Positions 27,901 to 53,172 of a DNA stretch of 64,000 bases are shown piece after piece. The notes beneath the pieces were generated by a model. That model ran no database searches. It was given only the letters and a program-made list of their open reading frames with translations, and was not told where the DNA came from. This stretch comes from Blattabacterium cuenoti (lineage in GTDB: Bacteria; Bacteroidota; Bacteroidia; Flavobacteriales; Blattabacteriaceae), in assembly GCF_014252055.1 (NCBI RefSeq), contig NZ_CP059208.1:383297-447296 (forward strand), in the 5' to 3' direction. Numbering within the stretch: the first letter of the stretch is position 1; each line of letters opens with the position of its first letter. The position numbers and the translations under genes are program-made.

Positions 27901-27940
27901 ATGACTTTTTGTCATATTTTTTTTTTATAACTATTGTCAT
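27901..27940. promoter_or_regulatory. possible activator-binding site upstream of dnaK (ATGAC/GTCAT repeats)
   Basis: ATGAC at 27901-27905 and GTCAT at 27911-27915 form an inverted pair with a 5-base spacer, and another TTGTCAT occurs at 27934-27940. The same pentamers form a tight palindrome upstream of groES (51063-51073). The elements lie about 50-80 bases upstream of the sigma-54-like -24 box, where enhancer-binding activators usually sit. The motif is short, so this is inference. Confidence 0.35.
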
Positions 27941-27982: not shown

Positions 27983-27998
27983 TGGCATAATGATTGGA
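27983..27998 (+). promoter_or_regulatory. sigma-54-type -24/-12 promoter of dnaK
   Basis: The 16-mer TGGCATAATGATTGGA fits the sigma-54 consensus TGGCAyrNNNNTTGCW at every defined position except the -12 GC, where it has GG. The -24 GG (27984-27985) and -12 pair (27996-27997) have the required 12-base offset. The predicted start near 28009 leaves a leader of about 25 bases to the dnaK ATG. It shares ATTATGGCATA with the groES element. Confidence 0.58.
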
Positions 27999-28034: not shown

Positions 28035-29936
28035 ATGAGTAAAATTATAGGAATAGACTTAGGAACCACAAATTCTTGTGTAGCTGTAATGGAAATTAAT
28101 GATCCTGTTGTTATACCAAATTCAGAAGGGAAAAGAACTACTCCATCTATAGTTGCTTTTGTTGAAGGAGGAGAAAGAAAAATAGGAGATCCAGCTAAAA
28201 GGCAGGCAGTCACTAATCCTCATAAAACTATTTTTTCTATTAAAAGATTTATGGGAAGAATGTATTCAGAAGTAACTGAAGAATTGAAACATATTCCTTA
28301 TAAAATAATAAGAGGGGAAAATAATACACCTCGTGTAGACATAGGAGGAAGATTATATGCGCCACAAGAAATATCTGCAATGATTTTACAAAAAATGAAA
28401 AAAACAGCTGAAGATTATTTAGGAATAGAAATAAACAGAGCTGTAATTACAGTTCCAGCATATTTTAATGATGCTCAAAGACAGGCTACAAAAGAAGCTG
28501 GAGAAATTGCAGGGTTAAAAGTGGAGAGAATTATAAATGAACCAACAGCTGCTGCTTTAGCTTATGGTTTAGATAAAAGTAATCAAAATAAAAAGATTGT
28601 TGTATATGATTTAGGAGGAGGAACTTTTGATGTTTCTATTTTAGAGTTAGGAGATGGAGTTTTTGAGGTTCTTTCAACTAATGGAGATACTCATCTAGGA
28701 GGAGATGATTTTGATCAAGTAATTATTGATTATTTTTCCAATGAATTTAAATCTAAAGAAGGGTTAGATTTAAGAAAAGATCCTATGGCGTTACAACGTT
28801 TAAAAGAAGCTTCTGAAAAAGCGAAAATAGAATTATCTTCTTCTAATCAAACAGAAGTTAATCTTCCGTATATTACTGCCACAGATTCTGGTCCAAAACA
28901 TTTAGTTATAACTTTAACTAAGTCAAAATTTGAACAATTATCAGAAAAATTGATACAAAGATCTATTACTCCATGTTCTAAAGCATTAAAAGATGCAAAT
29001 TTAACAATAAAGGATATTGATGAAGTAATTTTGGTAGGAGGTTCTACACGTATACCTAAAGTACAAGAAGAAGTTAAAAAATTTTTTAATAAAAAACCAT
29101 CTAAAGGAGTAAATCAAGATGAAGTAGTAGCTATTGGAGCTGCTATACAAGGTGGAGTTTTAACAGGAGACGTTCAAGATGTGTTACTATTAGACGTTAC
29201 TCCATTATCTTTAGGAATTGAAACATTAGGAGGAGTTTATACAAAATTAATTGATTCTAATACTACTATTCCTACTAAAAAATCTGAAATATTTTCTACA
29301 GCAGCTGATAATCAATCAGCAGTAACTATAAGGGTAGGACAAGGAGAGAGACCTATGTTTAAAGATAATAAAGAAATAGGAAGGTTTGACTTAGTAGATA
29401 TACCACCTGCTCCTAGAGGGATCCCTCAAATAGAGGTAATTTTTGATATAGATGCTAATGGAATACTTAATGTCTCTGCAAAAGATAAAGGAACTGGAAA
29501 AGAACAATCAATAAGAATTGAGACATCTTCAGGTTTAAATCAAGAAGAAATAGAAAGAATGAAAAGTGAAGCAAAAAAAAATGCTCAAAAAGATGAAAAG
29601 ATTAAAGAAGAAATAGATAAGTTAAATGCTGCAGATACTCAAATTTTTCAAACAGAGAAACAATTAAAAGATTATGGGAGTAAGTTATCAGAGGATAATA
29701 AAAATAATATAAAAAATTCTTTAGAAGAGTTAAAAAAAGCTCATTCTAAAAAAGATATTTCTGCTATTGATAATAGTATGAAAAATTTAAATGAAGCATG
29801 GGCTAAAGCATCTAAAAATTTATATAATGAAGGAAAGAAAAACAATAATGATAAATCTAGTAATCAAAATACCGAAGGTAAAAATGGAAAAAATAACGAA
29901 AATGTACAAGATGTAGATTATGAAGAAGTAAAATAA
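28035..29936 (+). CDS. dnaK: molecular chaperone DnaK (Hsp70)
   Basis: ATP-driven chaperone of 633 residues. The nucleotide-binding domain shows [53 protein letters not shown] and [14 protein letters not shown]. The substrate-binding domain has [14 protein letters not shown], and the C-terminus is an Asn/Lys-rich tail ending DVDYEEVK, the conserved EEVD-like end. It stands alone, without grpE or dnaJ beside it. The upstream region carries a sigma-54-like promoter. Confidence 0.98.
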
Positions 29937-47597: not shown

Positions 47598-48977
47598 ATG
47601 TTTAAAAGTTACAGTGACAATAAAAAAAATGTCATGACAAATAATAAAAACAATTTATACAAAATTTTTCATATAGAAAATTACGGATGTCAAATGAACA
47701 TTTCGGATAGTGAAATAATTACTTCTATTTTATTGACACATGGATTTGTTATTTCAGAAAAAATTGAAACAGCAGATATACTATTGTTAAATGCTTGTTC
47801 TATAAGAGAAAAAGCAGAGTTAAGTTTAACTAAAAAATTAGAACAGCTAAGATTTTTAAAGAAAAAAAAGAAAGTTTTATTTGGAATTACAGGTTGTTTC
47901 TCTAAACAACTAAAAGAACTTTTTTTAAAAGAAAAAAGAGCAGATTTCTTTGTTGAACCAGATCATTATAAAGAAATACCTAATATTATTCAATCTATCT
48001 CAAATGGAATAAAATCTATACCTTTTCCAAGAAGAAAAGAAACATATAGTGATATTATACCATTTTCTAATAATAAAAAAGTAACAACATTTTTAAGTAT
48101 AACAAGAGGGTGTAACAATATGTGTACATTTTGTATAGTTCCATTTACTAGAGGAAGAGAAATAAGTAGTGATCCTAATATTATAATAAAAGAATGTAAA
48201 CGTTTATATAAAATTGGATATAAAGAAGTTACTTTGCTAGGGCAAAATGTTGATTCCTATGAATGGAAAATAGGAGATTCTAAAAATAGATTTATAAAAT
48301 TTTCTGATCTTTTGAACTTGTTAGCTGAAGAAATTCCTTTAATGAGAATACGATTTTCTACGTCTAATCCACATGATATGTCTGAAAACGTTATTAGAGT
48401 TATATCTAAATACCCTAATATATGTAAGCATATACATTTACCAGTTCAATCTGGAAGTAATAAAATACTTAAATTAATGAATAGAAAATATACACGAGAA
48501 GAATATATTAATTTAATAGAAAAAATTAGGAGTATTATTCCTGAATGTTCAATATCTCATGATATTATGACTGGATTTTGTGGAGAAGATGAAGAAGATC
48601 ATAAGGATACTATTAGTTTAATGAACAAAATTAAATATAATTACGGTTACATGTTTTATTATTCTCCAAGACCAGGAACATTATCTTACAGAAAATTTAG
48701 AGACGATGTTCCAATAAGTATAAAGAAAAAAAGATTAAAAGAAATTATAGATTTGCAAAGAAAACATTCATTATACCGTATGAAGAAATTTATTGGGGAA
48801 ACACAAAAAATATTAGTAGAAGGAATTTCTAAAAAAAATTGTAAAAACTTATACGGAAGGAATACTCAAAATATAGTTGTAATTTTTCCAAAAAAAAATT
48901 TTGTATCAATAGGCGATAATATAAATGTAAAAATATTGGATAATACATCTGCAACTTTAATAGGTAAAATTGATTAA
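47598..48977 (+). CDS. miaB: tRNA-2-methylthio-N6-dimethylallyladenosine synthase MiaB
   Basis: Radical-SAM methylthiotransferase acting on A37 of tRNAs, 459 residues. The N-terminal UPF0004 domain shows NYGCQMNISDSE, NACSIREKAE and GCFSKQLKE (three cluster cysteines). The radical-SAM motif is CNNMCTFC, and a C-terminal TRAM domain follows residue 390. All cysteines are intact. It sits before the sigma-54 activator. Confidence 0.96.
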   Translation: MFKSYSDNKKNVMTNNKNNLYKIFHIENYGCQMNISDSEIITSILLTHGFVISEKIETADILLLNACSIREKAELSLTKKLEQLRFLKKKKKVLFGITGCFSKQLKELFLKEKRADFFVEPDHYKEIPNIIQSISNGIKSIPFPRRKETYSDIIPFSNNKKVTTFLSITRGCNNMCTFCIVPFTRGREISSDPNIIIKECKRLYKIGYKEVTLLGQNVDSYEWKIGDSKNRFIKFSDLLNLLAEEIPLMRIRFSTSNPHDMSENVIRVISKYPNICKHIHLPVQSGSNKILKLMNRKYTREEYINLIEKIRSIIPECSISHDIMTGFCGEDEEDHKDTISLMNKIKYNYGYMFYYSPRPGTLSYRKFRDDVPISIKKKRLKEIIDLQRKHSLYRMKKFIGETQKILVEGISKKNCKNLYGRNTQNIVVIFPKKNFVSIGDNINVKILDNTSATLIGKID

Positions 48978-49031: not shown

Positions 49032-50315
49032 ATGGAGTCTATCCAAAATATAAAACATAAATTTGGAATAATAGGATATGATTATCCTTTGCATCAAGCT
49101 ATAGAAAAAGCGGTACAAGTAGCTCCTACTGATATTTCAGTATTAGTTCTTGGAGAGAGTGGTGTAGGAAAAGAATTTATACCAAAAATAATACATCAAT
49201 TTTCTTGCAGAAAACATAATTCATATATTGCTGTTAATTGTGGAGCTATTCCTGAAGGAACTATTGATAGTGAACTTTTTGGGCACGAAAAAGGATCTTT
49301 TACAGGGGCTACAAACATGAGAAAAGGATATTTTGAAGGAGCAAATGGAGGGACAATTTTTCTAGATGAAGTTGGAGAGTTACCTTTAACTACCCAAGTG
49401 CGTCTTCTTCGAATCTTAGAATCTGGAGAATTTATTAAAGTCGGATCTTCAAAAATCCAAAAAACGAATATAAGAATAGTTGCAGCTACTAATTTGAATA
49501 TGATAGAGTCTATACAAAAAGGAAAGTTTAGAGAAGATTTATATTATCGATTAAATACAGTACAAATAAATGTACCTCCTTTACGATCCCGTAAAAATGA
49601 CATTAAACTTTTATTTAAAAAATTTTCTAACGGTTTTGCTGAAAAATATAACATGCCTCCAATAAAATTAACTGAAGAATCTTTGAAATATATGGAAAAT
49701 TATTCTTGGCCAGGAAACATAAGACAGTTAAAAAATATAATAGAACAGATTTCTGTAGTAGAAAAAGAAAGAGAAATTTCTGTAGAAAAATTAAAAGAAT
49801 ATATTCCGGATAATATTCCTTCGGTTCATCTTCCTTATTTTAATAACTTTAATGATAATTTTACTCATAACTATTCTAAAGAAAGAGACTTTATATACAA
49901 AATATTATTTGATATGAAAAAAAGTTTAAATGATTTAAAAAATATAACTTTTCAATTAATAAAAAATAATCCAAACAATGATAAATTTTTGGAAGAAAAT
50001 CAAGATATTATAAAAAAATTATTTGGTCATATCATTAATCAAGCTTCTAAAGATAGTTTTTTTCAACTTGAACATTTTTCTAAAATATCTAGTAATAAAA
50101 ATATAAATACATCTTGTAATCATAGTTTCAATTATGAAGAAATTGAAAAAAATTCCCCAAAAGAAGAAATACCTTCTTTTTCTTTGCGAAGAAAAGAAAA
50201 AGAATTTATTCAAAAAGCTTTGAAAAAAAATAATGGAAAAAGAAGCAAAGCAGCTAAAGAACTTGGAATTTCGGAAAGAACATTATATAGAAAAATTAAG
50301 CAGTATGGATTATAA
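49032..50315 (+). CDS. sigma-54-dependent transcriptional activator without sensor domain
   Basis: AAA+ enhancer-binding protein of 427 residues. It begins almost directly with the AAA+ domain: Walker A GESGVGKE at residues 41-48, sigma-54 contact loop GSFTGA at 88-93, Walker B TIFLDE at 108-113, and arginine finger region in [20 protein letters not shown] long linker (about 255-385) leads to a Fis-type helix-turn-helix ([20 protein letters not shown]). No N-terminal receiver, GAF or PAS domain is present, so control must be by level or partner. It lies upstream of lptE-secG-groESL. Confidence 0.95.
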
Positions 50316-50790
50316 AAATATTTTTTTTGTTTTTACTTTTATGTTTTTTTCTTTTAATTCATCTTTTATTCCGTTTTTTAGTAAAAAAAAAACAATAGAA
50401 ATTGGAGAATTTACAGAAAAAATTAGATTTCTTGATAAATCTTTTGCTTTTGATATTAAGAAAAATCTTGAAGAATGTGTGGAAAAATATAGTTCTTTAA
50501 AAATGGTTCCTGAAAATGGAGATATTGTTATAAAAGGAGTTTTTTTAGATTATATAATGACTTATGTAGGAGATACTCCAATACAAAAATTTAAATTAAT
50601 AATGAGAATATATTATAAAGATAAATTAGAACCTAAAAAAAACTGGAAAAAATGTTTTTCTTCGTCAGAATACTTTTTATATAAAAATTATGAAGATAAT
50701 ATATTTTTAAACGAACCCGCAATAGATCAAGTTACAAGATATTTAACAATAAAAATATTCAATAAAATATCTTCTTGCAGTGAAGATTAA
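50305..50790 (+). CDS. lptE: LptE-like LPS-assembly protein lacking a lipobox cysteine
   Basis: 161 residues from the ATG at 50305, overlapping the activator's last 11 bases. The block [20 protein letters not shown], the segment [18 protein letters not shown], and the end [15 protein letters not shown] fit Bacteroidetes LptE, which also stands between this activator and secG in relatives. The hydrophobic N-terminus (residues 5-24) has no cysteine, so it cannot be lipidated as usual. A longer frame from 50233 would only add overlap. Confidence 0.7.
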
Positions 50791-50816: not shown

Positions 50817-51056
50817 ATGTCTTTAGTTACTGTATTTGGTTTTTTTATTATTATAATGTGTATATTTCTTATATTAATTATTTTAGTACAAAATCCTAAA
50901 AAAGATAGTATTTCTCAATCTTTTTTAGAAAAAAATTTTAAATTTTTTGGAATAAAGAGGGCTAATTCTTTTTTAGAAAAAATTACTTGGTCTTTATCTA
51001 TTATTATATTTTTTTTAGTTCTACTTTTTAACTTTTTTTTAAAATTAAAATACTAA
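50817..51056 (+). CDS. secG: protein translocase subunit SecG
   Basis: Two-helix auxiliary subunit of the Sec channel, 79 residues. The N-terminal helix FGFFIIIMCIFLILIILVQN ends in the conserved LVQNPK segment, and the second helix spans residues 58-76. The usual glycine-rich middle is replaced by a Lys/Phe-rich one. It lies between lptE and groES. Confidence 0.85.
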   Translation: MSLVTVFGFFIIIMCIFLILIILVQNPKKDSISQSFLEKNFKFFGIKRANSFLEKITWSLSIIIFFLVLLFNFFLKLKY

Positions 51057-51062
51057 AAACAT

Positions 51063-51073
51063 GTCATTATGAC
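51063..51073. promoter_or_regulatory. possible activator-binding palindrome upstream of groES
   Basis: GTCATTATGAC is a perfect 11-base palindrome (5-base arms around one T). Its centre is 51 bases upstream of the groES sigma-54 -24 GG. The same arms occur as separated repeats upstream of dnaK (27901-27940). It could be the enhancer for the activator encoded at 49032; this is inference. Confidence 0.42.
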
Positions 51074-51117
51074 GTTAAATTTTTATTAAATTAGAAAATT
51101 ATTGTGTTTTTTTATTA

Positions 51118-51133
51118 TGGCATATTTTTAGCT
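51118..51133 (+). promoter_or_regulatory. sigma-54-type -24/-12 promoter of groESL
   Basis: TGGCATATTTTTAGCT matches TGGCAyrNNNNTTGCW with a single change in the -12 TT. The invariant GG (51119-51120) and GC (51131-51132) are 12 bases apart, as sigma-54 requires. The predicted start near 51144 leaves a 47-base leader to the groES ATG. G and C are rare in this spacer, so the cluster stands out. The eleven bases ATTATGGCATA are shared with the dnaK element. Confidence 0.7.
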
Positions 51134-51190
51134 ATAATATGAATTACTTATTTAGAGTCATTAATCTTATTAATTAAAATTATTTAAAAT

Positions 51191-51469
51191 ATGGTGGAAG
51201 TAAATATTAAACCTTTAGCAGATCGAGTTCTAGTAAAACCTGACCCTGCCGAAACAAAAACATCATCAGGCATTATTATTCCTGATACTGCAAAAGAAAA
51301 ACCACAAAAAGGTACAGTGTTTGCTGTAGGAAAAGGTAAAAAAAATGAGCCTATGATTTTGAAGGAAGGAGATAGAGTTTTATATGGAAAATATTCTGGA
51401 ACAGAATTAAAATGGGATGGAGAAGAATATCTTATTATGCGAGAATCTGATGTAATAGCAATTATATAA
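51191..51469 (+). CDS. groES: co-chaperonin GroES
   Basis: Lid of the GroEL cage, 92 residues. [20 protein letters not shown], the mobile loop [19 protein letters not shown], and [20 protein letters not shown] are canonical. The start ATG is at 51191. It is preceded by a sigma-54-like promoter and followed by groEL after 65 bases containing a small hairpin. Confidence 0.97.

Positions 51470-51528: not shown

Positions 51529-53172
<1,644 letters not shown>

Follow-up and report, generated by a model that had tools for sequence, protein, structure and literature searches.

A predicted sigma-54 promoter of groES-groEL and a proposed minimal chaperone regulon in Blattabacterium

The window analysed here, a 64,000-base stretch of a Blattabacterium cuenoti genome, carries upstream of groES-groEL what is probably a working sigma-54 promoter belonging to a minimal regulon of chaperone genes that descends from free-living flavobacteria, a reading to which we assign a probability of roughly 0.88 from comparison of sequences. 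That the predicted promoter before the chaperonin genes is real appears almost certain. The first-pass annotation had already read the site as a sigma-54 promoter driving groESL, and that reading finds strong support in conservation of the site, the presence of rpoN, a single activator, a helically phased palindrome, and the sister promoters of dnaK and of grpE-dnaJ. The features concerned are collected in Table 1.

Table 1. Promoters, candidate activator sites and genes of the proposed circuit, in window coordinates
Feature	Position	Strand	Basis or remark
Predicted sigma-54 -24/-12 promoter of groES-groEL, TGGCATATTTTTAGCT	51118..51133	+	25/25 genus genomes conserve the site, not the flanks
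Candidate enhancer (UAS), imperfect palindrome TGTCATTATGACG	51062..51074		Conserved at phased spacings, groES and grpE
Predicted further promoter of the sigma-54 type, TGGCATAATGATTGGA	27983..27998	+	TGGCATAATGATTG invariant in 21/21 genus genomes
dnaK	28035..29936	+	633-aa ORF with GIDLGTTNS
TGACTTTTTGTCA dyad upstream of dnaK promoter, possible activator site	27902..27914		Also upstream of dnaK in G046 (another genus of the same family)
Sigma-54 activator (EBP)	49032..50315	+	PF00158, E 5.2e-65; HTH_8, E 1.8e-14
lptE by position, between EBP and secG	50233..50790	+	EBP-LptE pair annotated in F. psychrophilum
secG, gene directly upstream of the promoter	50817..51056	+	PF03840, E 2.9e-14
groES (Cpn10)	51191..51469	+	PF00166, E 9.9e-34
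groEL (Cpn60)	51535..53172	+	PF00118, E 1.8e-76

The element upstream of groES

The element TGGCATATTTTTAGCT has its GG at 51119-51120 and its GC at 51131-51132, a 12-base offset with ten bases between, and lies 58-73 bp upstream of the groES ATG (51191); transcription is predicted to start near 51144. The arrangement agrees with the coordinates given in the first-pass annotation, as does the scarcity of G and C remarked on there, which together make up 20 of the 134 bases of the secG-groES spacer (51057-51190). Both the GG/GC pair with N10 spacing and the TGGCAY at -24 that mark sigma-54 promoters are present. With one mismatch allowed, the groES site is the sole match to TGGCATRWTTTTNGCT within the window (0.04 expected), and the whole genome, a single contig of 622,023 bases, holds two matches to TGGCANRNNNNTNGCW, at groES and upstream of grpE.

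The genus comparison comprised the window genome and 24 others. The element is found at the same place in all 25, each of which keeps the GG-N10-GC core whose conservation in relatives had been named as a check, and 23 are identical, reading TGGCATGTTTTTGGCT; of the two exceptions to this consensus one ends in A, and the other is the window copy itself, with two G-to-A changes. Mean column agreement across the 25 genomes is 0.99 over the 16-mer; the 40-base flanks on its two sides give 0.71 and 0.55. In 15 other genus genomes the pattern TGGCAYRNNNNTNGCW occurs at groES, with one further place in just two genomes; the one of these that was checked, at 132313 in G010, falls within an ORF and was discounted. 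AT-rich spacers yield many partial matches (245 core matches with a score of at least 9 genome-wide), and it might be supposed that the groES site is a chance match, or is shared by ancestry without function. However, this is already contradicted by a 16-mer that is conserved near-perfectly while its flanks drift, and the convergence of such sites on three chaperone operons also speaks against it; we consider it extremely improbable.

It might also be expected that groESL depends mainly on the primary sigma factor, through a promoter for the sigma-A of Bacteroidetes or a sigma-70-like one, or on read-through from secG, which lies on the same strand 134 bp upstream, the sigma-54 site being a relic. 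Weak sigma-70-like matches do exist, but they are not above shuffles (4 found, against a mean of 2.5), and while in the window genome a TATAAT at 51133-51138 overlaps the site at its end, the motif is otherwise seen, nearby, in one other of the 25. In addition, TAnnTTTG is absent from 24 of the 25 spacers, and a relic would hold neither 16 bases across 25 species nor an intact rpoN and activator gene. Control of groESL by a primary sigma factor or by read-through is therefore improbable.

HrcA/CIRCE and sigma-32 control the same target genes in other phyla. The window genome differs from HrcA/CIRCE systems in that a search for CIRCE-like repeats with up to 3 mismatches gave 0 matches, as the first-pass annotation had noted, and an HrcA gene was likewise not found in the genome.

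A phased palindrome upstream of the promoter

The imperfect palindrome TGTCATTATGACG lies 56 bp upstream of the groES -24 box in the window genome, and its genus consensus is TGTCATNATGACA. This dyad is present upstream of groES in 25/25 genus genomes, at 55-57 bp from the -24 box in 21 of them; three others have it at 45-47 bp and the remaining one at 59 bp. The same dyad stands 24-26 bp upstream of the grpE -24 box in 14 of the 16 genomes examined. Among 70 sigma-54-like sites in the genome, two (groES and grpE) have a 9/10 dyad within 150 bp, and none does in a reversed control. In other Bacteroidota, dyads of the form TGNCA-N3-TGNCA precede the -24 box by 25, 35-37, 45-47, 55-57, 78 or 89 bp. 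The dyad spacings fit a 10.5-bp period with R = 0.91 (n = 37; the same R for 27 distinct combinations), a value reached by 0 of 20,000 uniform draws, and relatedness among the genomes inflates these statistics. Phasing on one face of the helix is what would result if an activator bound to the DNA made contact with polymerase. At 25-89 bp from the -24 box, these sites are closer than many classical NtrC-type enhancers.

In many free-living groES loci (e.g. L050, L069 and L073) the dyad, there TGCCAGCCTGTCA, forms part of a T-tailed hairpin that follows secG, and thus terminator and activator site may share bases. Given that the dyad overlaps the left arm of the apparent secG terminator, its conservation in free-living relatives may have two causes.

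These arrangements raise the alternative that the palindrome is what remains of an intrinsic terminator of secG, with the promoter still of the sigma-54 type and its activator independent or bound elsewhere. The palindrome does come directly after the secG stop, and T-tailed hairpins occur in the region in free-living relatives; however, no terminator-like structure was found in the window spacer, and the central bases of the halves are often unpaired (TGACA..TGACA, TGTCA..TGTCA), which would make a poor RNA stem. The same palindrome also lies upstream of grpE, including grpE of free-living relatives, where it stands at 25 bp and lacks a T-tract. It is the distance to the -24 box that is quantised at about 10.5 bp, while the distance to the secG stop varies from -8 to 17 among the 25 genus genomes. 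A vestigial terminator is thus unlikely, and the palindrome is better read as a candidate site for binding of the EBP.

The activator, RpoN and the proposed chaperone regulon

The EBP gene lies three genes upstream of groES, in the order miaB-type gene (47598-48977), sigma-54 activator, lptE by position, secG, groES and groEL; the gene taken as lptE gave no Pfam match. As in the flavobacterial regulon, an orthologous EBP is therefore found near groESL. The encoded protein consists of an AAA+ domain, a lid and a Fis-type HTH, and a receiver or other recognised sensory domain was not found in it. It is the only strong PF00158 match in the genome, the other matches being weak and taken as other AAA+ proteins. 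One orthologue per genome, uninterrupted by stops, is present in all 25 genus genomes, with the Walker A motif, REDLxYRL and a 14-residue HTH helix unchanged across them. The genome thus has a dedicated AAA+ activator with a GAFTGA-type loop. This sigma-54-contacting loop reads GSFTGA in all 25 genus orthologues, as against GAFTGA in five free-living relatives and in G046. The rpoN gene, whose presence elsewhere in the genome the first-pass annotation had made a check on its reading, is there in a single complete copy with activator-interacting (AID), core-binding (CBD) and DNA-binding (DBD) domains; it is also present in the smallest genus genomes checked.

A strict TTGC consensus at -12 missed dnaK and many free-living groES promoters, and was relaxed to TTG followed by any base. 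The second site in the window, TGGCATAATGATTGGA, lies 52 bp before dnaK and keeps the -24 element and the TTG while lacking the GC: its -12 is TTGG, not TTGC, and across 21 genus genomes the dnaK -12 is TTGG, TTGA or TTGT. The dyad TGACTTTTTGTCA is found upstream of dnaK in nearly all of these 21 genomes, at distances that are unphased. Intergenic matches to TGGCA-N8-G in the whole genome fall at dnaK, grpE-dnaJ and groES-groEL, with two others that were dismissed, one at 349428 that is ribosomal RNA judging by sequence and one at 360637 that adjoins tRNA-Cys. From this listing the recognisable regulon comprises three core chaperone operons, and sites upstream of groES, grpE-dnaJ and dnaK are the set that characterises the flavobacterial regulon. 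The same intergenic listing gave no sigma-54 site upstream of lon in the window genome. Two side observations concern grpE. Two reduced genomes of 580 and 571 kb (G009 and G010) have neither sigma-54 site nor palindrome at grpE and keep both at groES. In G002 two identical 41-base palindrome-promoter modules of grpE stand 633 bp apart (C1:87562-87602 and 88195-88235), as if the upstream region had been duplicated.

Outside the genus, TGGCANRN5TGH occurs within 200 bp of groES at 54 of 85 loci, against 0.075 expected from shuffles, and at 0 of 77 coding controls. A search with the joint pattern, which was too strict, gave a match in 3 of 79 genomes. The 344,793-base genome G046, from another genus of the same family, has rpoN, and its groES locus comprises an activator whose loop reads GAFTGA and whose HTH is the same, followed by secG, TGACATTATGTCA, 36 bp, TGGCATATTTTTGGA and groES. 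Its dnaK is preceded by a diverged GGGCATGATGATTGA with TGACTTTTTGTCA upstream. A further sigma-54-type site in this genome, TGGCATAACTATTGT (C1:216581), stands 44 bp before a lon-like gene, lon being a member of the F. psychrophilum regulon. The presence of this site suggests that the lon site was lost from the window genome rather than never part of the regulon.

The mechanism that these features suggest would begin with binding of RpoN holoenzyme to the -24/-12 element, on which the groES promoter is predicted to depend. The single EBP, as a dimer or oligomer, would bind the palindrome on the same helix face and hydrolyse ATP to open the promoter, and the resulting RNA would start at the predicted position and cover groES-groEL. 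The same RpoN/EBP pair would drive grpE-dnaJ and dnaK. Counting against this reading are the dnaK promoter, with its departure from TTGC at -12 and its unphased dyad, the loss of both elements at grpE in G009 and G010, and the two differences of the window's groES site from the genus consensus. High chaperonin levels are typical of symbionts. Since it has no recognised sensory domain, the EBP may be constitutive, which would suit such levels, or it may be governed directly by folding state (e.g. by free chaperone).

Relation to known systems and to the retention of rpoN

Several sigma-54 promoters of Flavobacterium psychrophilum have been mapped by their transcription start sites, at groESL, lon, dnaK, grpE-dnaJ and htpG, which form one co-expression cluster (PMC9723704). 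A 2025 survey found chaperone genes of Bacteroidota to be enriched for sigma-54 promoters, most in Flavobacteriia, the enriched groups being GroEL, GroES, GrpE, DnaJ and DnaK (PMC12316311). Given these two reports, the part of the first-pass annotation that called a sigma-54-driven chaperonin unusual fails for the phylum; it holds when the comparison is with Proteobacteria or Firmicutes. In the survey, reference 80, cited for its sentence on sigma-54-dependent groES and grpE, is a Blattabacterium genome paper (PMC12316311), and the paper that mapped the start sites (PMC9723704) looks a fitting source for the F. psychrophilum part of that sentence.

The window genome resembles the F. psychrophilum sigma-54 (SM4) system in that groESL, dnaK and grpE-dnaJ each have a -24/-12 promoter, mapped there by transcription start sites, and in that genes for a sigma-54 regulator and LptE are paired within a few locus tags of groES (PMC9723704). 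However, there are three EBPs in F. psychrophilum, and its sigma-54 has many further targets, motility and secreted proteins among them (PMC9723704), whereas in the window genome one EBP and three operons are left and the lon site is no longer seen. The proposed circuit shares with NtrC-type enhancer-dependent activation an AAA+ activator that carries a Fis-type HTH and an upstream site that is palindromic, but the EBP here is without a receiver or other recognised sensory domain. Rfam gave no family matching the groES region, and a hairpin between groES and groEL, whose conservation a remark in PMC2768785 had suggested, proved not to be conserved in the genus.

Sigma-54 chaperone promoters are thus already known in F. 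psychrophilum and predicted across Bacteroidota, and what this analysis adds is a minimal regulon, a candidate enhancer with helical phasing and a possible explanation for the retention of rpoN. Enhancer sequence, phasing and symbionts were not described in the 2025 survey (PMC12316311), and a partial search of the literature, which is no proof of novelty, did not find an enhancer described for this activator. The phased palindrome is therefore a concrete, apparently undescribed candidate binding site for the groESL-linked activator of Bacteroidota.

That RpoN is still present in Blattabacterium and in two symbionts of scale insects has been called unusual, and for one of them a tentative tie to nitrogen was drawn (PMC3971599). 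A reason besides nitrogen was not found for symbiont rpoN (PMC3971599) in a search that was again partial and does not prove novelty.

In Sulcia, rpoN is reported absent, and in Uzinura and Walczuchella it is reported present. It is about an even proposition that rpoN has been retained in Flavobacteriales symbionts with extremely reduced genomes because it maintains the transcription of chaperone genes, with one sigma factor, one activator that has no recognised sensory domain (constitutive or governed by folding state), three operons and a helically phased enhancer common to Bacteroidota. The sites point to chaperones rather than nitrogen, which is directly testable. The symbionts appear to have reduced the circuit to one sigma-54, one activator and three chaperone operons, and a circuit stripped down in this way would account for the persistence of rpoN in genomes this small.
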